Positions 7,548 to 56,201 of a DNA stretch of 64,000 nucleotides are shown piece after piece. The notes beneath the pieces were generated by a model. The model was given only the letters and a program-made list of their open reading frames with translations, did no database searches and was not told the origin of the DNA. A program made the translations under genes and the position numbers. Every line of letters starts with the position of its first letter. The first letter of the stretch is position 1. This stretch comes from Halobaculum limi. GTDB taxonomy: Archaea > Halobacteriota > Halobacteria > Halobacteriales > Haloferacaceae. The DNA lies in assembly GCF_029490015.1 (NCBI RefSeq), contig NZ_CP120468.1:1488001-1552000 (forward strand), read 5' to 3'.

Positions 7548-8909
7548 ATGGACGTAGTCGACCCGTCGACTGGCGAGCGAATCGAAACGTACGCGGACCA
7601 CACCCAGTCGGATGTCGAAGCAGCGCTCGACCGGGCGAATGCAGCGTTCGAAGACTGGCGCCTTCGGCCGGTTCGGGAACGCGAAGAACTGCTTGCGGCT
7701 GCCGGTGAGGTGCTGCGAGAGAACAAGCGCAAGTACGCCGAAACGATGACCCGCGAGATGGGAAAACCGGTCTCGCAAGCCCTCGCAGAGGTCGAAAAGT
7801 GCGCGTGGGGCTGTGATCACTACGCGGAACACGCGAGCGCGTATCTGGAACCCGAGGGACACCCCAGTCCACCGGGGGCGGCGGTCGAGACCGTGTACGA
7901 ACCACTGGGGCCGGTCCTCGCAGTAATGCCGTGGAACTTCCCGTTCTGGCAGGTGTTCAGGTTCGCCGCCCCCTCGCTGACGGCGGGCAACGTCGGGTTG
8001 CTGAAACACGCCTCCAACGTCCCCGGCTGTTCGATGGCAATCGAGGAGGTGTTTCGTGAGGCTGGCTACCCCGAAGGGGTCTTCCAGTCACTGTTGATCC
8101 CGTCGGATCTCGTTGAGGGGGTCCTCGCGGACGACCGCGTTCGGGCCGCGACACTGACCGGCAGTGGACCGGCTGGGAGGGCTGTCGCGTCGACAGCGGG
8201 CGAGTACCTCAAGAAGACTGTGCTGGAACTCGGCGGAAGCGACCCGTTCATCGTCCTCGACGACGCCGATATCTCGGCTGCTGCGGAGATCGGTGCTCGG
8301 GCGCGCAACCAGAACGGTGGGCAGTCATGTATCGCAGCCAAGCGATTCATCGTTCACACGGACGTGTACCAAGCGTTCCTCGACAAGTTCACCGAAGTGG
8401 TGTCGTCACTCACGGTTGGCGATCCGATGGACGAGGAGACCGACGTCGGTCCACAGGCCCGTCAAGATCTCCTAGAAGACCTCCACGGACAGGTCGAGGC
8501 GAGCGTCGAGGTGGGCGCACGGGTCGTCACGGGTGGTGTGTCCCTCGATCGGCAGGGTGCGTACTATCCCCCGACAATTCTCACAGAAGTCCCGGAGGGA
8601 TGCCCTGTCGACGCCGAGGAGACGTTCGGGCCCGTCGCCGCCGTCTATGAGGTCCCGGACGAAAACGCGGCGATCGTGAAAGCGAACGACACCGAGTTCG
8701 GTCTGGGTGCGAGCATCTGGACCGAAGACCGCGAGCGCGGCGAGCGCCTCGCTCGACAGATCGACACCGGTAACGTGTTCGTGAATCAGCTGGTGAAGTC
8801 CGACCCACGAGTCCCGTTCGGCGGAGTCAAGGAGTCTGGCTACGGCCGCGAACTCTCCAATGCGGGCATCATGGAGTTCGTCAATCGCAAGACCGTCTGG
8901 GTGGAATGA
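7548..8909 (+). CDS. NAD(P)-dependent aldehyde dehydrogenase, succinate-semialdehyde type
   Basis: A 453-aa cytosolic enzyme oxidising an aldehyde to its acid. ALDH hallmarks are present: the Asn motif MPWNFPFWQV, the Gly-rich turn TGSGPAGRAV, the general-base Glu in LELGGSDPF, the catalytic Cys in NGGQSCIAAKRF, and a C-terminal PFGGVKESGYGRE. The length and short N-terminus resemble the GabD/Sad subgroup for succinate semialdehyde. The frame is open upstream to 7323, but the family starts at MDVVDPSTGE, hence ATG 7548. Its stop overlaps the start of the acetolactate-synthase-like gene (ATGATGA), so the pair is an operon with translational coupling. Confidence 0.9.
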   Translation: MDVVDPSTGERIETYADHTQSDVEAALDRANAAFEDWRLRPVREREELLAAAGEVLRENKRKYAETMTREMGKPVSQALAEVEKCAWGCDHYAEHASAYLEPEGHPSPPGAAVETVYEPLGPVLAVMPWNFPFWQVFRFAAPSLTAGNVGLLKHASNVPGCSMAIEEVFREAGYPEGVFQSLLIPSDLVEGVLADDRVRAATLTGSGPAGRAVASTAGEYLKKTVLELGGSDPFIVLDDADISAAAEIGARARNQNGGQSCIAAKRFIVHTDVYQAFLDKFTEVVSSLTVGDPMDEETDVGPQARQDLLEDLHGQVEASVEVGARVVTGGVSLDRQGAYYPPTILTEVPEGCPVDAEETFGPVAAVYEVPDENAAIVKANDTEFGLGASIWTEDRERGERLARQIDTGNVFVNQLVKSDPRVPFGGVKESGYGRELSNAGIMEFVNRKTVWVE

Positions 8910-10486
8910 TGAAGGCATCCGATCTCCTCGTCAGATGCCTCGAAACAGAGGGTGTCGAGTACGTGTTCGGGCTCCCGGGGGAAGAACTCGAGGCCCTGCT
9001 GTTCTCACTCCGCGATTCGGACATCCAGTTCATCCCGGTGCGACACGAACAAGGTGCGGCGTTCATGGCCGACGTTCACGGTCGGTTGACGGGCGAAGCC
9101 GGTGTCTGCCTCTCGACGCTGGGACCGGGTGCCACGAACCTTCTCACGGGCGTCGCGGACGCCCATCTCGACAAGTCCCCGCTCGTCGCGATTACGGGAC
9201 AAGGTGGGCTCGAACGCCTCCACCAGGAGAGCCACCAGGCCCTCGACATCGTCCACATGTTCGAGCCGGTCGTGAAGTGGAACACACAGATCACCGAGGC
9301 CGAGATTATCCCGGAGTCGGTACGCAAGGCGTTCAAGCTCGCCGAGTATGAGAAACCCGGTGCGACCCACCTCGAGTTTCCCGAGGACGTGGCAGCCCAA
9401 GCGCTCGATGCAGAGCCGCTCCCAACTCGGCCACGTGTGCGACGGGCTGCCCCCGACGAGCGGTCGCTCGACCGCGCCGTCGAACTCCTCGAGGACGCAG
9501 ACACCCCGCTGGTGTTAGCCGGTAACGGTGCCGTCCGAACGTCGACCGCGAATCGGTTGCGCGAACTGGTCGACCACGCAGGGATGCCCGTCGTCGCGAC
9601 GTACATGGGAAAGGGGGCGGTCTCGGATCGGCTCGAGAATTCGCTGATGACGCTCGGCTCCGGACCGCAGTCCGAGGCGTCGACGGCGATCTCCCGGGCC
9701 GACTGTGTACTCGCAGTCGGCTACGACATCGCTGAACACGACCCTCGCTCGTGGAACACCGACCTCGATAAGGCCATTATCCACGTCGATCACGAACCTG
9801 CAGAAGTATACCGACACTACAATCCGGACGTGGAAATCGTCGCGGACATCTCGACGGTCCTCCGAGAGCTACGGCTGCATCTCGATTCCGCGTCTGGACC
9901 GGAGTGGTGTCAGGACCTGCGCGAGCGGATCGTCGCGGACGTGCAACGAAAACCCGAATCTGACGACCCGTTTTCGGTGAAACGGACGCTCCCGTTCCTC
10001 CGGGAGACGATGGCTGACGAAGACATTCTGCTCTCTGACGTCGGGAGTCACAAGATGGCGATCGCACAGAGTTTCCCCACCTACGAGCCCAACACGTGCA
10101 TCATATCGAACGGATTGGCAAGTATGGGAATCGCTGTCCCCGGCGGAATCGCTGCCGATCTTGCAACCGATGCGAACGTCGTCGTCGCGACCGGCGACGG
10201 TGGGTTTCTGATGAATGCGGCCGAAATCGAGACGGCCACCCGCCTCGACCTCGGGTATACGATCGTCGTGTTCAACGACGACGACTACGGCCTCATCTCG
10301 GAGAACCAGGTCGCACACACCGGTGAACAGTTCGGAACCGAACTGACGAACCCTGACTTCGAGCGATTCGCCGAGAGCTTCGGAATCGAGAGCTACCGGC
10401 CAGAGACGTGGGGAGAGGTCGAGACAGTCTTCAAACGTGTTGTTCCTGCGAACGAGATGTCCCTGGTCGAAATCACGCTTGGGTAG
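8906..10486 (+). CDS. Acetolactate synthase-like thiamine-pyrophosphate enzyme, large subunit
   Basis: A 526-aa enzyme of the TPP-dependent decarboxylase family. The activating Glu lies in VRHEQGAAFMA (E48). The central domain is at about 190-320. The TPP/Mg2+ motif runs GDGGFLMNAAEIETA to VVFNDDDYGLI. The overall pattern is AlsS/IlvB-like: two pyruvates to 2-acetolactate plus CO2. No small regulatory subunit is adjacent, which favours a catabolic AlsS-type or another 2-keto-acid lyase over branched-chain biosynthesis. ATGs at 8906 and 8909 are both possible. Coupling to the aldehyde dehydrogenase suggests a shared keto-acid/semialdehyde route, but the substrate is unknown. Confidence 0.85.
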   Translation: MMKASDLLVRCLETEGVEYVFGLPGEELEALLFSLRDSDIQFIPVRHEQGAAFMADVHGRLTGEAGVCLSTLGPGATNLLTGVADAHLDKSPLVAITGQGGLERLHQESHQALDIVHMFEPVVKWNTQITEAEIIPESVRKAFKLAEYEKPGATHLEFPEDVAAQALDAEPLPTRPRVRRAAPDERSLDRAVELLEDADTPLVLAGNGAVRTSTANRLRELVDHAGMPVVATYMGKGAVSDRLENSLMTLGSGPQSEASTAISRADCVLAVGYDIAEHDPRSWNTDLDKAIIHVDHEPAEVYRHYNPDVEIVADISTVLRELRLHLDSASGPEWCQDLRERIVADVQRKPESDDPFSVKRTLPFLRETMADEDILLSDVGSHKMAIAQSFPTYEPNTCIISNGLASMGIAVPGGIAADLATDANVVVATGDGGFLMNAAEIETATRLDLGYTIVVFNDDDYGLISENQVAHTGEQFGTELTNPDFERFAESFGIESYRPETWGEVETVFKRVVPANEMSLVEITLG

Positions 10487-10691
10487 CAGGGATAACTGTT
10501 CTTCTACATCCCACATTTACGGCTATGACGGGAGCGGGAGGTTATCGACCATCAGACTAGAATGCCCGAGACAAACTGTGCGCAGAATACACCGACGAGC
10601 AGTGGAGTACGACGGATTAACTGGTAGTTTCCCCACGTCACCCATCAGGAGAGGCGGAGCGTATTTGCTGTTGAATAGCCAATATATCGAT

Positions 10692-11171
10692 ATGGCTCTC
10701 GAGGTTTCGATTCCGGATCCGCCATCGCTCCACGGGCCCCAGCCCAGGGGTGAGTACGAAGCAATCGATAATCCAGTCAACGACCCCGAAGACGACTATC
10801 GCCGGGAAGAGATTGAGCTGATCCTGTCGAACGGCGCGTGGAACGATGCCTTCGAGGAGTGGGCGGCCCAGACTGGGCTGACCGTGGACACCTTCGAGGT
10901 TGTCATCGAGTACGAACTTATCGACGACTTCGACTTCTACTGGGACGCCACGACGGACGAGATCGGCTACCAGTCGCCGACGCTCCCGCACGTGGCTCGT
11001 GAGGAACTCGACGCTAGAGCCGTGGAAGATATCGAGTTGGAACTCGACACCCTCGGCCGGGTAGTCTCGGAGATGCTCGAAAACGACTACCTCTTGCGTG
11101 ACGACGAGATGTTCGGCTTCTTCGCTGACGACACATCCGAAAACACGTACGAGTCCCGTAACGAGGAGTGA
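10692..11171 (+). CDS. Acidic haloarchaeal protein of unknown function
   Basis: A 159-aa protein rich in Asp and Glu with no membrane segment. It contains WNDAFEEWAAQTGLTVDTF and a run of aromatic and acidic residues (YELIDDFDFYWDATTDE). I do not recognise the family. The frame is open from 10437, but the upstream part is Arg/Ser-rich and non-native in composition; ATG 10692 gives a typical haloarchaeal protein. Its 3' end overlaps the open frame of a decayed antiporter tail on the other strand. Confidence 0.6.
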   Translation: MALEVSIPDPPSLHGPQPRGEYEAIDNPVNDPEDDYRREEIELILSNGAWNDAFEEWAAQTGLTVDTFEVVIEYELIDDFDFYWDATTDEIGYQSPTLPHVAREELDARAVEDIELELDTLGRVVSEMLENDYLLRDDEMFGFFADDTSENTYESRNEE

Positions 11172-11269
11172 CCGGAGTAGATCACCGACACGACGCCGAC
11201 AGTTGTGAGTCGATTGGTGAGTGACTCAAGGGGTCTATCGAGCGCATTCGGGCAGACGACGAGTGACCG

Positions 11270-11635
11270 TTGTTCTTCTCTAGCCGCTTCATCTGCATCT
11301 CCGTCGGGCTCGTCTACCTCGATCCCCAATTCTCGGACGCGCTCGCGCCAGACCTCGTCGTACCCCTTCCTCCCGTCCATCACAGTGGACTCGCCCGCCT
11401 CGACTCGATCGAGCTTGAGGTTCGTCTCCCCCAGGAGACGCTCACCGATCTCGTCGCTGACAACACCGATTCGAATCGCGTTGAGCACGGCACTTTTCTC
11501 CGACTGCAAGACGCGTCGCTCGTCCATCATGAGTTCCTCGCGCCCCACCTCCGGGTACGCAGTGAGAAGTGCCGGGATGACTGTTCGAAGCTGCCCTTTC
11601 TCACGTTCGTACTCCGTCGTGAACGCCTCGTACAT
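11270..11635 (-). pseudogene. C-terminal fragment of a CPA1-type Na+/H+ antiporter
   Basis: About 120 residues resemble the cytosolic tail of NhaP/CPA1 antiporters (YEREKGQLRTVIPALL, VLQSEKSAVLNAIRIGVVSDEIGERLL, NLKLDRVE). No membrane domain precedes it: an in-frame TGA lies just upstream of the first Met at 11635, and the upstream DNA shows no antiporter helices. The frame continues to 11087, but the last 60 residues are Ser/Arg-rich and not family-like. A solitary tail cannot transport, so this is a gene remnant. Confidence 0.6.
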
Positions 11636-11779
11636 CTCGCTGGGATCTCACAGATGCAGATGATGTTGAGTTACTATTGCTGAATACAGAGGATGAGTTC
11701 AGCAACTGGTGCCCGTCCGACCTGTCCCCTGAGACTAGTGAGTATCCATTTTATACACGTCCTCACCGTAGTCTCGAGT

Positions 11780-12199
11780 GTGATATCACGGCTTCTCGTC
11801 CCGATGGATGACTCGGAGATGGCCCAGCAAGCGCTCGAGTACGCTCTCGAGAACCATCCCGAGGCGGAGATCACGGTCTTGCATGTCGAGGGCGGACCGT
11901 CAGTGATGGGGGGAGCAGCCACAGCACTCGCTCTCGAAGAGGACCCGGAAGAGGCCGCCGAAGAGCACTCGAAGGCGGTATTCGAGGAGGCCCGGGAACT
12001 CGCCACCGAGTACGATGTAGACATTACCACCGAAGTTCAGATGGGTCATCCGGCCCGGGCGATTTTGAACAGAGCCGACGACTTCGATGCAATCGTACTC
12101 GGTAGCCACAGTGGTTCGTTAGTCGATCGGCTGATCGTCGGGAACGTCGCCCAGAAGGTGGTCCGCCAGTCGCCCATCCCGGTAATCGTCGCCCGGTGA
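11780..12199 (+). CDS. Universal stress protein (UspA family)
   Basis: A 139-aa alpha/beta protein. The N-terminal strand RLLVPMDDSEMAQQ, the alternating helices and strands, and the C-terminal nucleotide-loop region (LGSHSGSLVDRLIVGNVAQKV) are typical of UspA. The usual second Gly of the ATP loop is a Ser here, so ATP binding is uncertain. The frame opens at 11693, but the first 29 residues do not fit; the GTG at 11780 gives the family-typical length. It stands alone between decayed sequences. Confidence 0.85.
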   Translation: MISRLLVPMDDSEMAQQALEYALENHPEAEITVLHVEGGPSVMGGAATALALEEDPEEAAEEHSKAVFEEARELATEYDVDITTEVQMGHPARAILNRADDFDAIVLGSHSGSLVDRLIVGNVAQKVVRQSPIPVIVAR

Positions 12200-12648
12200 G
12201 TGGCCAGCGAGTAAGGCCATTAAACAGCCGTGCCCCGGAGTCCCCAGCGAACGAATACACACTTGCCCACCACTATCTGTACCAACTCAATTCAGCTTCC
12301 GGCAAAAACGAATCCGGTGACCGATAGGCACTCTGTATTCAGTAACTGCTTTCTAACAGTATCCAGAGAGAGCGAGCGACGAGATGAGAGACCCGGCCTC
12401 TATACTCATCAAGCGGCTTGTGTCAGTTTCTGAGGAGTTCAACAAAGCCGTATCAGTGGTATCCGAAGCTCGAGGAGAGCGCTCCGTAGTTCACTCCGCT
12501 TGCAGACTATAGATCGCGTACTCCGCATCTGTTCGTGGTCCAAGTGGACCAGTACAGGTGCTGTCGGTCGTGTCACCCACATAATGATAAAGTAGACGAG
12601 TGTGAAAGTATCGCCCCTTGATGCAGCCACAGAGCGAATGTAGAACAT
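12200..12648. other. Gap, about 450 bp
   Basis: No family-like open frame was seen on either strand, only short shadow frames. The right half is AT-richer and probably holds the SPFH-gene promoter. No repeats or RNA fold recognised. Confidence 0.35.
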
Positions 12649-13743
12649 ATGTACGACCCGACCCCGCTACAGGTCTCCACTCTCGGGTTCGCGATAGTCG
12701 GCCTGCTGGTACTGGTGCTGGCAATCGTAACGGTCTCGCAGATGGTGCGGTTCGTCGACGCGTACGATAAACAGGCGCTCACCGTGTTCGGCGAGTATCG
12801 CGGCTTGCTCGAGCCGGGCCTCAACTTCGTTCCCCCGTTCGTCTCGCGCACGCACACGTTCGATATGCGTACTCAGACGATGGACGTGCCCCGACAGGAG
12901 GCGATTACGCGGGACAACTCTCCCGTTACAGCGGACGCCGTCGTCTATCTCCGTGTGATGGATGCGAAGAAGGCGTTCCTGGAGGTCGAAGACTACAAGA
13001 CGGCAGTCTCGAACCTCGCCCAGACCACGCTCCGGGCAGTCATTGGCGACATGGAACTGGACGACACGCTGAACAAGCGCCAGGAGATCAACGCTCGCAT
13101 TCGTAAGGAGCTCGACGAACCGACCGACGAATGGGGAATCCGCGTCGAGTCAGTCGAAGTCCGAGAGGTCAACCCCAGTCAAGAGGTTCAACAGGCGATG
13201 GAACAGCAAACCGGCGCGGAACGGAGACGCCGAGCCACGATCCTCGAAGCGCAGGGCGAACGCCGGAGTGCAGTCGAGAACGCCGAAGGGGACAAGCAGT
13301 CGAACATCATTCGAGCGCAAGGTGAAAAACAGAGCCAGATCCTCGAGGCACAGGGTGATGCGATCTCGACGGTGCTGCGGGCGAAGTCCGCCGAATCGAT
13401 GGGCGAGCGCGCGATCATCGACAAAGGAATGGAAACGCTCGAAGCGATCGGTCGGGGGGAGTCGACGACGTTCATCCTCCCCCAGGAACTCACCTCGCTG
13501 GTGGGTCGCTACGGCAAACACCTCACGGGGAGCGACGTGGCGACCAATGAGCAAAGGCTGGATAGCCAGGGATTCGACGCCGAGACCCGCGAACTCATCG
13601 GACTCGACGACATCAAGGAGATCCTCGGCGAGATCGACAAGGCCGCCGAGATGGACGTCGAAGAGCTGGAACAGCAGGCCAAGGCGGTCAAGGACGGGGC
13701 CCCCACCTCCAAGGGTGCAGATCACGCCGGTGACGGAGCATGA
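12649..13743 (+). CDS. SPFH/band-7 membrane-anchored protein (stomatin/prohibitin-like)
   Basis: A 364-aa protein with one N-terminal membrane helix (about residues 10-32), an SPFH domain (about 35-210: ALTVFGEYRGLLEPGLNFVPPF and IRVESVEVREVNPSQEVQQAM), a coiled-coil stretch with repeated AQGEKQSQ/ILEAQGD units (about 210-255), and an acidic disordered tail. Such proteins form membrane-bound ring scaffolds that organise lipids or proteases. No NfeD-type partner is nearby. The next gene overlaps by four bases (ATGA), so the 91-aa protein is likely its translational partner. Confidence 0.88.
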   Translation: MYDPTPLQVSTLGFAIVGLLVLVLAIVTVSQMVRFVDAYDKQALTVFGEYRGLLEPGLNFVPPFVSRTHTFDMRTQTMDVPRQEAITRDNSPVTADAVVYLRVMDAKKAFLEVEDYKTAVSNLAQTTLRAVIGDMELDDTLNKRQEINARIRKELDEPTDEWGIRVESVEVREVNPSQEVQQAMEQQTGAERRRRATILEAQGERRSAVENAEGDKQSNIIRAQGEKQSQILEAQGDAISTVLRAKSAESMGERAIIDKGMETLEAIGRGESTTFILPQELTSLVGRYGKHLTGSDVATNEQRLDSQGFDAETRELIGLDDIKEILGEIDKAAEMDVEELEQQAKAVKDGAPTSKGADHAGDGA

Positions 13744-14015
13744 GTTCTGAAGAGAACCTTCCGGCAGACTGGGTGCTAGAATCCAAGCAGACAATCTACG
13801 ACGTACTCATGGGCCGCAATTATACCACGGTTCTCTATCGCCAGGAACACACCAGAAGCGCGGTATACATCAACGAGGTTATCGACGGAAGGAACGTTTG
13901 GGAATACAACGTCCATCACTCGGGGCGGGACGGTGACCTCGGAACCGCCGCAGACCTGGAAACGGCGAAGCAAATCGCGTTCACGTTCATGAACGACTCC
14001 AGCGCCAGCGTGTGA
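13740..14015 (+). CDS. Small hypothetical protein coupled to the SPFH gene
   Basis: A 91-aa soluble protein whose start overlaps the SPFH stop (ATGA). It has a probable beta-rich core (TTVLYRQEHTRSAVYINE, then NVWEYNVHH) and ends in the helix DLETAKQIAFTFMND. I do not recognise the family. A 22-residue copy of its C-terminus survives at 7418-7483, so a paralogue once existed nearby. The coupling suggests it works with the SPFH scaffold. Confidence 0.65.
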   Translation: MSSEENLPADWVLESKQTIYDVLMGRNYTTVLYRQEHTRSAVYINEVIDGRNVWEYNVHHSGRDGDLGTAADLETAKQIAFTFMNDSSASV

Positions 14016-14260
14016 TATCCGACGCACCGTCGGCGATCGCTTGCAGATAGACGACGGCGAGAGAGCGAGCGTCCTGACGATTGTCGGTCGAGAGGTTGTG
14101 TCGCCGGTCTGATCGGTGATCAGGGATGTGAGAATGCACTCCGGAATCCGTTCATGAGGAGTTACGAACCGGGTCGAATACATCGGCGTCCATCGACCAT
14201 TCAGGAGGGACACGGAATTACGTCTCTGGCCCGAACTATTGGAACAAGGACCGCTTGAAT

Positions 14261-15514
14261 ATGGTATCTACACTCGTTGTCGTGGGGTTGCTCGTGGCTG
14301 CCTTCGTCGGATTCAACATTGGTGGGTCGTCGACCGGTGTCGCGTTCGGACCGGCCGTCGGGAGTCGCCTCGTCAGAAAGGCCACTGCCGCAACCCTGTT
14401 CACGCTCTTCGCGTTTCTGGGTGCGTGGACGGTCGGTCGGAACGTCATCGCCACCATGAGCGACGGCATCGTTCCAGCGGTGCAGTTCTCGCCACTAGCG
14501 ACTGTCGGTGTGCTGTTCTTCACCGGGCTGGCACTCTTGCTCTCGAATCTGTACGGGGTTCCCGCCTCGACGTCGATGACTGCCGTGGGTGCGATCGTCG
14601 GGCTCGGTCTGGCAACGGACTCGCTCAACGAGGCGTTGATGTTCACGATCGTCTCCGCGTGGATCGTTGCGCCACTCCTCGGATTCGCGACTGGTGCCAT
14701 CGTCGGCCGATATCTGTACCCCCAGTTAGAGGCCCAGATGTCGTTCACGCGCTTCGAGCGGCACCTCGTCCAGCTCGATCGCTCGGGGAGGGTTCCGCGC
14801 CTCCACCTCAATACGAACGCAGCCCCCCGGGACCTCGTCGGCTCGTTTCTGGTCATTGCAATCGCGTGTTACATGGGGTTCAGTGCAGGGGCCTCGAACG
14901 CCGCAAATGCCGTCGCACCGCTCGTCGGCAACGGGTCGATCACCATCGAGCAAGGCATCGTGCTCGCCGTCGCTGCCATCGGCCTCGGTGGGTTCACCAT
15001 CGCCCGGCGGACGCTGGCGACGGTTAGTGACGGAATCACCGACCTACCAATTCTGGCCGCACTCGTCGTCTCGAGCATCGGGGCGACCATCATCACCGTC
15101 CTCTCGTATCTCGGTATTCCGGCGAGTCTCGCGGTGAGCACGACCTGCTGTATCATCGGACTCGGTTGGGGACGAGCGAGTCGCGCCGCCACGCTCGCGG
15201 AGATCGCCACCCGACGTACCGAGCGTGAGTTGGCTGCGAGGCTCACAACGGGTGCGCTCGCGGCGTCTACGGGGTCGGATGACGAACCGACCAGCCCGAC
15301 CATCGGCGAACTGGCGAGCAGTACGGCTGGCGAGCGGACGGGGCGACGGGACAGAGACAGACCGGTTCCCCCGATCGGGGAGGAACACATCGACGAACTC
15401 AGCGCAGAGAGCTTATTCGACCCGGCCGCCACACGCCGAATCGTCATCCTCTGGATCCTCGCACCCTCGCTCTCGGTCGTCGGCTCCTATCTCCTCTTCA
15501 GTTTGCTCCTGTAG
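14261..15514 (+). CDS. Inorganic phosphate transporter, PiT family
   Basis: A membrane protein of about 417 aa with two homologous halves. Each half carries the PiT signature: GFNIGGSSTGVAFGPAVG near residue 18, and GFSAGASNAANAVAPLVG near residue 207. A hydrophilic loop follows (about residues 315-385) before a final helix. It imports phosphate with H+ or Na+. ATG 14261 is chosen over the in-frame TTG at 14255. A UspA-like fragment begins right after it; in haloarchaea transporter and UspA genes are often adjacent. Confidence 0.85.
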   Translation: MVSTLVVVGLLVAAFVGFNIGGSSTGVAFGPAVGSRLVRKATAATLFTLFAFLGAWTVGRNVIATMSDGIVPAVQFSPLATVGVLFFTGLALLLSNLYGVPASTSMTAVGAIVGLGLATDSLNEALMFTIVSAWIVAPLLGFATGAIVGRYLYPQLEAQMSFTRFERHLVQLDRSGRVPRLHLNTNAAPRDLVGSFLVIAIACYMGFSAGASNAANAVAPLVGNGSITIEQGIVLAVAAIGLGGFTIARRTLATVSDGITDLPILAALVVSSIGATIITVLSYLGIPASLAVSTTCCIIGLGWGRASRAATLAEIATRRTERELAARLTTGALAASTGSDDEPTSPTIGELASSTAGERTGRRDRDRPVPPIGEEHIDELSAESLFDPAATRRIVILWILAPSLSVVGSYLLFSLLL

Positions 15515-49686: not shown

Positions 49687-50535
49687 ATGACCGAATACGG
49701 CGTCGTCACCCGCAACGCCGAGGAGGTGGAGTGGCCCGACTTCGACCTAGGCTTCTACGAGGTAAAAGACGTCACTGGGCGCTCGGCAGAACCGCTGGAG
49801 ACGGCCGTCAATATGGTGTCGTGTTTCGGCGACAACGCGGCCGCCGAGGCGACGCCCGAGTTGGTCCCCGTCGACGAGGAGGGGAACCCAGCCACGCGCG
49901 ACCGGACGTACTTTGACTGGGCGTACATCTGCCCCACCCACGAGCGCTATCGCGAGGGACTACTCGAAATCGTCGAAGACTGCGCAGCCGTCAACGACGA
50001 CGTTCGCCTCGATGACGTGGGCTTCCCTCGACAGGGCTACTGTCATTGTGACCGCTGTGAACAGCAGTTCGCCGACTCTGAGTACGACGACTGGGAGGCG
50101 TGGCGCACGAGCGTCATCACCGAGTTTGTCGCCGAAGCGACCAAGCGCATTCCCGGGCGTGCCTACCTCACGCTGTACCCCGACCCGTACCCCGGCCACC
50201 TGTACGAACGCGCGGGCCTCGACCTCGACGCACTCGCGGAGTACGTCGACGAGTTCGTCGTCCCCCTCTACGACACCCACTACGGGACGACCTACTGGCT
50301 GGAGACCATCGCGAAGGGGTTCGAGAGTCGACTCGCCGACCTTGACGTGACGTTCTCGGTCGAACTGTACGCCGTCAACGTCGACATCGACGACTTGAAC
50401 CACGCCGCCGAGGTCGCGGGGGCGTACGGCGAGGACGTCTTCTTCGGCTACGACGCGAGTCAAGCGGCCGCGGCGCTCCGGCGGATGCGGGCGGACGCCC
50501 GTGAGGGCAAAGAGTACGGCGCGAGCGAGGAATAA
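49687..50535 (+). CDS. Glycoside-hydrolase-like TIM-barrel protein
   Basis: A 282-aa soluble acidic protein. The motif RLDDVGFPRQGYCHCDRCEQQF resembles the C-C-C-F signature of GHL/GH-like barrels that contain a CxCxxC knuckle. Further strands (VIT-EFVAEATKRIPG-RAYLTLYPDPYP, YVDEFVVPLYDTHYG, FFGYDASQAAAALRRM) fit an eight-stranded barrel. No signal peptide is present, so it acts inside the cell. Substrate unknown; catalytic acids cannot be assigned. Confidence 0.6.
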   Translation: MTEYGVVTRNAEEVEWPDFDLGFYEVKDVTGRSAEPLETAVNMVSCFGDNAAAEATPELVPVDEEGNPATRDRTYFDWAYICPTHERYREGLLEIVEDCAAVNDDVRLDDVGFPRQGYCHCDRCEQQFADSEYDDWEAWRTSVITEFVAEATKRIPGRAYLTLYPDPYPGHLYERAGLDLDALAEYVDEFVVPLYDTHYGTTYWLETIAKGFESRLADLDVTFSVELYAVNVDIDDLNHAAEVAGAYGEDVFFGYDASQAAAALRRMRADAREGKEYGASEE

Positions 50536-54010: not shown

Positions 54011-54865
54011 GTGATCGACGAGACGATCCGGCGCATTGAGGAGTTACAGACTCAGAGTGCGTCCGTCGTCGCCGTGGACGCCGCAGAGGCGCTGCGGGAA
54101 CTGACCGACCGACAATTCCGCAGCGTCGAGGAGTTCGAGCGTTCGCTCGAACGTAACAGTCGGTCGCTACGCCAAGCGAACACGTCGCACGCCCCGCTAT
54201 ATACTACCCAACGACGGATCCTCGAGCGCGTCGACGACGCAGACACCGACACTGTAGACGCGGCGAAGGCGGCGCTCGAAACTGCTATTGAGGAGGTGAT
54301 CGACCGCGTCGAGACGACTAAGGCAGACGCGAGTAAGCGAGCTGCTGATCTGATCGACGATGGCGACGTACTGTTGACCCACGAGAACTCCTCGACGGTG
54401 ATGGCCGCGTTTGATCGTGCGCTCGCCGACGGCAAGTCGTTCGATCTGTACGTCACCGAGTCGCGCCCGCGATACCTCGGGCGGCGGACCGCTCGCCAAC
54501 TCGCCGGCAACGACCGCGTCGACGTGACGATTATCGTCGACGGCGCTGCAGGACACGTTCTCTCAGAGTGTGACCGCGTGTTCGTCGGGATGAACTGCCT
54601 CATTGATGATACGGTGTACAACCGGATCGGTACCTACCAGATCGCGACGGCCGCCGCCGATCAGGACGTCCCCTTCACCGTCGTCGCCGCCTCCTCAAAA
54701 TTTATCGGCGACTCTGGCTTCACCTTCGAGAACGCCGACCGTCCGGCATTCGAGGTGGTCCAAGAACCACCCGACGGGTTCGACGCGAGCAACCCCGGCT
54801 ACGACACTACGCCGACGCGACTCGTCGACGCCGTCGTGACCGAAGACGGTGTAATGCAGTTTTGA
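54011..54865 (+). CDS. eIF2B-alpha/ribose-1,5-bisphosphate isomerase-like protein without the catalytic pair
   Basis: A 284-aa protein with the eIF2B/MtnA/R15P-isomerase fold: a helical N-terminus, then the Rossmann part with TESRPRYLGRRTARQL (sugar-phosphate site, kept) and TVYNRIGTYQIA. In enzymes of this family the motif THC(H/N)S supplies the catalytic Cys and VGAD the catalytic Asp. Here these read THENS (Glu125) and VGMN (Asn195). So the two key residues are changed and isomerase activity is doubtful. A binding or regulatory role, as in eIF2B subunits, is more likely. Start is GTG at 54011. Confidence 0.82.
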   Translation: MIDETIRRIEELQTQSASVVAVDAAEALRELTDRQFRSVEEFERSLERNSRSLRQANTSHAPLYTTQRRILERVDDADTDTVDAAKAALETAIEEVIDRVETTKADASKRAADLIDDGDVLLTHENSSTVMAAFDRALADGKSFDLYVTESRPRYLGRRTARQLAGNDRVDVTIIVDGAAGHVLSECDRVFVGMNCLIDDTVYNRIGTYQIATAAADQDVPFTVVAASSKFIGDSGFTFENADRPAFEVVQEPPDGFDASNPGYDTTPTRLVDAVVTEDGVMQF

Positions 54866-54953
54866 GCGGGGCGATTTCCAACGATTGAGGGCCCGCCCCA
54901 CGGTGGCGGTCGAAGCCGCTGGTGCTTTTGCTTGGTGTCCCGACGATGTATGT

Positions 54954-56201
54954 ATGACCCTCTACGATCGCCTGTACGAACTGTACGGCGAGTTCGACAC
55001 CGAGTCGTTGCGCGCGTATCGGGAGTTCGTCGACCTGTTCCCACCGCTGGACTCGCGGGTGGCACTGGATCGGTGGGACGAAGCCAACGACGACCTCTCG
55101 GAGCGCCGTGACCGCATCGAACGCGCGTTCGGCCCTGTCGCTGGCGAGACGCTCGCGGAAGTCGCCGCGATGGCGGATCGGGAGTCGGCGTTCACCGCAC
55201 TCGACCTCCACGGCAAGTACGGCCGTGCGCCGAACGCACTCGTCTTAGACGTGGACGAGACGCTTCGTTCCGCCGGTGACACGGACAACGAGATTCCACG
55301 CGAGACGCTCCACCTCCTCACAGAGTTTGCGGAGTTGGGCGTCCCACTGGTCATCTGCACCGGCCAGACCTTAGAGAACGTCAAGGGCTTCCTCATCCAG
55401 GGGCTCGGCAACGAACTCGTCCACTCGGGCGACGTCTCGGTCGTCTACGAGGCCGGCGCAGGCGTGTTCACGCCTGGCAGCGGGGCCGACACCAAGCGCC
55501 TCCTGTATGACGAGCTTGAGGACGACGTACGCGGCACTGTCGACTACGTTCGCGACGGCATCCTCCACGAAGCGCCCGAACGCGTCCGCCGTGGCTGTCA
55601 CCTCCAAGGCAACGAGTTCAACGTCACCCTGAAACCGAACTACGAGACGGGGAGCGACGACGCCGAGGCCGTCATTGACGAGGCGATGGTCCACCTCCTC
55701 GGTCTCGTCGGCGAGGCGGTTGAGGAGCGAACCGATATCGAGGACGGCCCAGCAGCTGCACGAGCGTACTACGGTGACGCTGACCCCGAAATCGAGGGGG
55801 CGATCTCCCGGGCTGGCGGGGACGTGCCCGAGACGGTTCCGGAGGCAGCAGTGCCGTTGTTCGAGCGGCTTGAGGTAGCGCTGTATCGCGCCGACGCTGC
55901 AGAACTCGCGGCCGCCGACCTCCACAAGGCAGCCGGCGTTGAGGCATCGCTTGAGGTGTTGGGCATCGACGACCCGTTCGTCTGCGTGATGGGCGACTCG
56001 AAGTCTGACCTGCGGGTGATGGAGTGGGCCGAACAGCACGAGGCCGGCGTTTCGGCCGCGCCCGAACACTCGTCGGCGAACGTGCTGGATCACGTTCGCG
56101 CGACTGATGACCTCGTGTTTGCGCCCGGCGGCGCGGCCGACGTACTCCGGACGATGTACGCTTGGCGGTGTCTCGCCGACCTCGACGATCTTGACGACTG
56201 A
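54954..56201 (+). CDS. HAD-superfamily phosphatase
   Basis: A 415-aa protein. A helical N-terminal domain (about 1-90) precedes the HAD core: motif I LVLDVDETLRS (Asp 99, Asp 101), motif II VICTGQT, and motif IV GDSKSDLRVM, with a large cap domain between. This is the Cof/trehalose- or sugar-phosphatase-like branch. It starts 89 bp after the eIF2B-like gene on the same strand; the pair may act on phosphorylated sugars. Ribulose- or ribose-bisphosphate chemistry is a guess from the neighbour only. ATG 54954 is preferred to 54885. Confidence 0.82.
   Translation: MTLYDRLYELYGEFDTESLRAYREFVDLFPPLDSRVALDRWDEANDDLSERRDRIERAFGPVAGETLAEVAAMADRESAFTALDLHGKYGRAPNALVLDVDETLRSAGDTDNEIPRETLHLLTEFAELGVPLVICTGQTLENVKGFLIQGLGNELVHSGDVSVVYEAGAGVFTPGSGADTKRLLYDELEDDVRGTVDYVRDGILHEAPERVRRGCHLQGNEFNVTLKPNYETGSDDAEAVIDEAMVHLLGLVGEAVEERTDIEDGPAAARAYYGDADPEIEGAISRAGGDVPETVPEAAVPLFERLEVALYRADAAELAAADLHKAAGVEASLEVLGIDDPFVCVMGDSKSDLRVMEWAEQHEAGVSAAPEHSSANVLDHVRATDDLVFAPGGAADVLRTMYAWRCLADLDDLDD

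Follow-up and report, generated by a model that had tools for sequence, protein, structure and literature searches.

The window analyzed here, a 64,000-nucleotide stretch of the Halobaculum limi genome, encodes a 284-amino-acid protein of the IF-2B superfamily (P0001) in which both catalytic residues of the ribose-1,5-bisphosphate (R15P) isomerases are replaced. We suggest, with a probability of roughly 0.5, that this protein is a duplicated, non-isomerase and hexose-phosphate-binding regulator of glucan/gluconeogenic metabolism, a reading whose support comes entirely from comparative genomics. The features of the window on which the argument is built are as follows.

54011..54865, + strand: P0001, eIF2B/R15P-isomerase-like paralog, 284 amino acids; GTG start at 54011, stop codon ending at 54865
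54383..54385, + strand: codon of Glu125 (in THENSS), aligned with the catalytic Cys133/135
54458..54469, + strand: ESRP motif, residues 150-153; its E, R and P are invariant in the P0001 clade
54593..54595, + strand: codon of Asn195 (in VGMNCL), aligned with the catalytic Asp202/204
54698..54700, + strand: codon of Lys230, invariant in 35/35 clade members and aligned with the phosphate-binding Lys240 of R15P isomerase and Lys234 of human eIF2Balpha
54954..56201, + strand: P0002, HAD-IIB (Cof-type) phosphatase, 415 amino acids; motifs DVDET, TGQT and GDSKSD, N-terminal extension of ~95 amino acids

P0001 matches the Pfam IF-2B profile (PF01008) with 180.3 bits against a cut-off of 22.4 (E 5.9e-53), archaeal R15P isomerases align to it from end to end, and the top Foldseek matches of its AlphaFold model (pLDDT 75.7, with residues 234-281 poorly modeled) are R15P isomerases, P. 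horikoshii 1vb5 and human eIF2Balpha. As its profile score exceeds the curated cut-off and its fold is the same, P0001 belongs to the IF-2B superfamily, and the descent from the isomerase superfamily that a preliminary description of this DNA had proposed is supported. The protein falls short of the R15P isomerase equivalog model (TIGR00511; 150.8 bits, cut-off 314.1) and of the MtnA models TIGR00512 (96.9 bits, cut-off 279) and TIGR00524 (140.7 bits, cut-off 185.85), the catalytic Cys and Asp of MtnA being replaced as well. P0001 shares the fold, the overall alignment and ~26-34% identity with R15P isomerases, but differs from them at the two catalytic positions and in the residues that bind the 1-phosphate.

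When the catalytic sites are placed by HMMER alignment to the R15P isomerases of T. kodakarensis and P. horikoshii, Glu125 occupies the Cys site and Asn195 the Asp site, and the ESRP motif is intact, all as the preliminary description had it. The two replacements are moreover the mark of a subfamily: P0001-type proteins form a clade of 35 members (support 100/99 in an 81-row tree), of which 32 possess Glu125 and all 35 possess Asn195. The three remaining members (L089, L033 and L145) combine Asn195 with Ser (two proteins) or Gly (one protein) in place of Glu125. Since this conservation is clade-wide and the dN/dS of P0001 is ~0.2 (versus two congeneric orthologs), the unusual residues are not a sequencing fluke; the dN/dS value also shows that P0001 is under purifying selection, and no frameshifts were found among the orthologs listed. 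Invariant across the clade are Ser127, Ser128, Thr129, Glu150, Arg152, Gly193, Asn204 and Lys230, the phosphate-binding equivalents of the latter having been taken from PMC8187479 and PMC5789824. The 1-phosphate site of R15P isomerase (Arg22-Gly23, Arg65, Gln166 and Lys215 in the numbering of PMC5789824) has become Gln15-Ser16, Asn57, Leu156 and Arg205 in P0001, a loss that had escaped the preliminary description.

The genome contains four IF-2B-family genes. Besides P0001, they encode a canonical R15P isomerase (THCHS...GADSI), whose gene is followed by that of an R1P-kinase-like PfkB-type kinase, an HVO_2706-type protein (THDYSS, GMDCI) and a NUDIX-IF2B fusion resembling HVO_1934. In the Haloferax annotation, HVO_2706 is aIF2Bdelta and HVO_1934 an aIF2B subunit; the paralogs were named after these two proteins from their domain make-up and their likeness to the annotated descriptions. 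Homologs of P0001 are present in 58 of 60 relatives, mostly as one HVO_2706-type copy, and a minority of these genomes, patchily distributed, have a P0001-type copy in addition. The common ancestry of the two types is evident from the haloarchaeal family node (100/100), and in the tree the P0001 clade derives by duplication from the HVO_2706-type protein that is near-universal in haloarchaea. Because the clade nests with the core copies of Haloarcula (88/94 in the 81-row tree), the duplication looks to have occurred in or near the Haloarcula lineage, and the duplicate presumably spread later by transfer.

The core HVO_2706-type proteins share ~45-60% identity with P0001 and the same pocket residues S127, E150, R152, N204, R205 and K230. 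Their catalytic Cys is absent throughout, a point also missed in the preliminary description, and the RGA, Arg65 and Gln166 residues of the 1-phosphate site are lacking from clade and core family alike. As these losses are common to both groups, the R15P-isomerase site appears to have been lost first, with the Glu/Asn pair as a later mark of the duplicate. Unlike the patchily distributed P0001 clade with its Glu and Asn, the near-universal core family mostly has Asp at both positions (36/38 at the Cys site and 32/38 at the Asp site).

The gene neighborhoods of the two groups differ as well. The flanks of P0001-clade loci were compared with those of core HVO_2706-type loci, which were somewhat shorter; GH15 was named from its sequence, and the other flanking families through Pfam or NCBIfam matches. 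The clade flanks contain genes for a 4-alpha-glucanotransferase (GH77, MalQ), a GT4 glycogen-synthase-like glycosyltransferase, a sugar nucleotidyltransferase, a DUF7510 protein, a member of the phosphoglucomutase/phosphomannomutase family, GH15, FBPase and FBP aldolase. The GH77 gene is convergent to the clade paralog at a distance of 7-20 bp in several lineages, a phosphohexomutase gene is divergent from it at ~90-120 bp (three loci), and an FBPase gene is co-directional with it at 140-204 bp (three loci). Of 26 distinct clade loci, 14 have glucan/gluconeogenesis neighbors, as against none of the 17 HVO_2706-type loci (Fisher p=1.5e-4), or, when counted by lineage, in 7/14 versus 0/10 (p=0.02), a test biased upward because the query families were picked after the clade loci had been viewed. 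L118, whose neighbors are a class I aldolase and a sugar kinase, would have been the fifteenth such locus but was omitted, since both queries came from it alone; the phosphohexomutase of L004 belongs to a different subfamily and was excluded. An inherited or co-transferred block may stand behind some of the clade arrangements, which would reduce the number of independent events. The small DUF7510 protein (PF24350) recurs in the glycogen-type cluster at L002, L003, L006-L010, L131 and L137.

Among 65 selected genomes, 30 carry the paralog, and 28 of these have the GT4 gene, as do 12 of the 35 that lack the paralog. Two observations count against a regulator of glucan metabolism: eight of these 12 genomes are congeners of H. 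limi that possess glucan genes but no paralog, and in H. limi itself the MalQ/GT4 cluster (G000:C1, ~1.373-1.376 Mb) is located ~168 kb from P0001.

We infer the ligand class, the absence of catalysis, the regulatory mode and the target pathway of P0001 as follows. After the duplication of an HVO_2706-type protein, P0001 would have lost isomerase chemistry and would act as a sugar-phosphate-binding regulator, its pocket holding the sugar ring and a 5/6-phosphate via Ser127, Gly193, Asn204 and Lys230, much as human eIF2Balpha holds its ligand. The expected ligand is a monophosphate such as fructose-6-phosphate or glucose-6-phosphate, because the parts of the pocket for the ring and the 5/6-phosphate are kept and those for the 1-phosphate are gone. 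The domain of P0001 that contains the pocket (residues 113-232) scores higher against human eIF2Balpha (76.9 bits) than against R15P isomerase (67.9 bits). Sugar-6-phosphate binding without catalysis is a feature of human eIF2Balpha: devoid of both isomerase catalytic residues (it has Ala129 and Glu198), this protein accommodates fructose-6-phosphate (Kd ~9 µM) in what was the active site, contacting the ring via G196, A129, Y130, E198 and N208 and the phosphate via R132 and K234, whereas glucose-1-phosphate is not bound (PMC8187479). G196, N208 and K234 correspond to G193, N204 and K230 of P0001, whereas E198, R132 and Y130 are replaced by Asn195, Ser128 and Asn126; as eIF2Balpha needs Glu198 and uses Arg132, the first two of these differences would speak against a regulator that binds its ligand in the same manner. 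The D204N and C135S mutants of the P. horikoshii R15P isomerase are inactive and still bind the substrate (PMC5789824). Given these mutants and the binding of fructose-6-phosphate by eIF2Balpha, a binding-competent pocket without isomerase activity is plausible in P0001.

Ligand binding may then alter how P0001 oligomerizes or how it contacts a partner, and this change would tune the flow from gluconeogenesis to a glycogen-type glucan, the pathway with which its relatives are encoded. Hexose metabolism is pointed to by the position of clade loci in glucan/gluconeogenesis clusters, together with that of HAD genes in glucose-oxidation clusters; in this genus, the P0001 gene would have moved beside a HAD phosphatase gene whose relatives are part of the glucose-oxidation neighborhood. 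Archaeal 'eIF2B' proteins have long been without a clear role, some of them being isomerases and others lacking a deletion phenotype. With its own conserved replacement residues and its repeated association with gluconeogenic and glucan genes, the P0001 subfamily offers a role that can be tested, the sensing of hexose phosphates, and places a ligand pocket still used by human eIF2B in a context other than translation; should this role prove true, it would provide a lead on the control of storage glucan in haloarchaea.

That the old catalytic site has a conserved acidic residue could also mean that some chemistry is retained. The main rival to a regulator is an enzymatic role: P0001 would isomerize or epimerize a sugar monophosphate, with Glu125 replacing Cys as the acid/base and Asn195 positioning the sugar, and we regard this as possible, if rather unlikely. 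The retention of Glu125 in most of the clade, a remaining pocket that is near invariant, and neighbors that are sugar-phosphate enzymes are all in line with such an activity, and there is a precedent in RpiB, another isomerase family, where Glu75 of the Mycobacterium enzyme is the base at the position at which E. coli has Cys (PMC4783025). However, the inactivity of the two R15P isomerase mutants, the Ser or Gly that replaces Glu in three clade members, and the missing 1-phosphate site all weigh against catalysis, and the clade clusters do not evidently lack an isomerase step.

A role for P0001 in translation initiation, as a regulatory subunit of aIF2B that possibly senses sugar phosphates, is improbable. 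Its catalytic domain is closest to eIF2Balpha, and in Haloferax the initiation factors have an interaction hub in HVO_0966, which belongs to this family (PMC8576121). Yet when HVO_2706 was deleted, alone or with HVO_1934, the authors saw no effect on growth that they could ascribe to translation (PMC3828320), and a patchy distribution and sugar-gene neighborhoods are ill-suited to a core role in translation. Neither this deletion study nor that of the Haloarcula TrmB regulon holds direct evidence on the P0001 clade. More doubtful still is a use of eIF2B logic outside translation, in which an eIF2Balpha-like sugar-phosphate binder would physically regulate the adjacent sugar nucleotidyltransferase, which has the eIF2Bgamma/epsilon fold, or another enzyme of glycogen-type synthesis. 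In a PDB search, the nucleotidyltransferase of the clusters matches glucose-1-phosphate nucleotidyltransferases and not eIF2Bgamma/epsilon (E<=0.001), so that the parallel extends to the fold family only. If true, this arrangement would hint at the origin of the assembly of isomerase-like and nucleotidyltransferase-like subunits in eIF2B. An eIF2B decamer is not known from archaea.

That a HAD phosphatase gene follows P0001, as the preliminary description noted, is correct. The gap to the P0001 stop codon amounts to 88 bp, and the likely start is the ATG at 54954 rather than the TTG at 54885, since the relatives of P0002 begin with M(T/D)LYDRLY. The PF08282 match (38.1 bits, cut-off 20.9) and the HAD catalytic motifs place P0002 in the HAD-IIB family; its TIGR01484 score (35.9 bits) lies under the cut-off of 41.8, a PDB sequence search gave no match, and the AlphaFold model, made from a two-sequence input, is too poor to use (pLDDT 48). 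P0002-type HAD genes occur in 41 of the 60 relatives, whether or not the paralog is present. In 15 of 20 other genomes they lie within ~6 kb of glucose-oxidation (Entner-Doudoroff) genes; these flanking genes encode gluconate dehydratase-like, glucose dehydrogenase-like, KDG aldolase-like or KDG kinase-like proteins, names that are family-level and under the equivalog cut-offs, or GfcR, which scores above its NCBIfam cut-off. P0002-type proteins may be glucose-phosphate phosphatases that supply free glucose to the dehydrogenase.

The preliminary description had connected P0001 and the HAD phosphatase, as sensor or helper, with the ribose-bisphosphate pathway, for which one may cite the R15P isomerase homology and a co-directional order with the phosphatase gene that is kept in three congeners. 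We find this scarcely credible. The key genes of the non-carboxylating pathway described in PMC9700705 are present in the genome apart from the genes of the window; a member of the RuBP 5-phosphatase family (NF053830) is encoded beside FucA at ~2.857 Mb of G000:C1, matching with 290 bits over a stretch that lacks ~24 N-terminal positions (the cut-off of 330 is for the whole protein), and Rubisco was not found in the genome. P0002 was rejected as a RuBP phosphatase, as NF053830 gives no match to it at E<=1; the haloarchaeal enzyme (VNG_1202C) shares with P0002 the HAD superfamily and the broad reaction type, but P0002 is of the Cof/HAD-IIB type with an N-terminal extension, and its relatives adjoin Entner-Doudoroff genes. 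The 1-phosphate-binding residues of P0001 are gone, and paralog and HAD gene are direct neighbors only in three species of this genus (G000, G008 and G010), the sole co-location outside it being that in G363, where a hexose cluster contains both genes at a distance of ~3 kb. A conserved operon was hence rejected outside the genus. What stands of the preliminary reading is the superfamily descent, the loss of normal isomerase residues and a partly kept sugar-phosphate pocket: the feature is real and was correctly described, but it was assigned to the wrong pathway. That P0001 is a decaying, functionless relic, as replaced catalytic residues and patchy distribution might suggest, can practically be dismissed in view of its low dN/dS, the clade-wide conservation of replacement residues and pocket, and the intact reading frames of the orthologs listed.

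In congeners without the paralog (L128-L130), a conserved 282-amino-acid gene is located directly upstream of the HAD gene, and the paralog therefore appears to have been inserted between the two. The protein concerned is encoded in the window at 49687-50535 (+ strand), has no Pfam or NCBIfam match, and has the HAD gene as its neighbor in several congeners. At L162 (G363:C11, ~8059-15400), genes for HAD-IIB, phosphohexomutase, FBPase, the paralog, FBP aldolase and nucleotidyltransferase are found in one stretch. In six genomes (L178, L179, L180, L184, L185 and L186), the HAD gene is divergent from the genes for the glucose dehydrogenase-like protein and GfcR, the latter being in Haloferax an activator of genes for the breakdown of glucose and fructose (PMC11519228); this arrangement suggests that glucose use is served by a common regulatory region.
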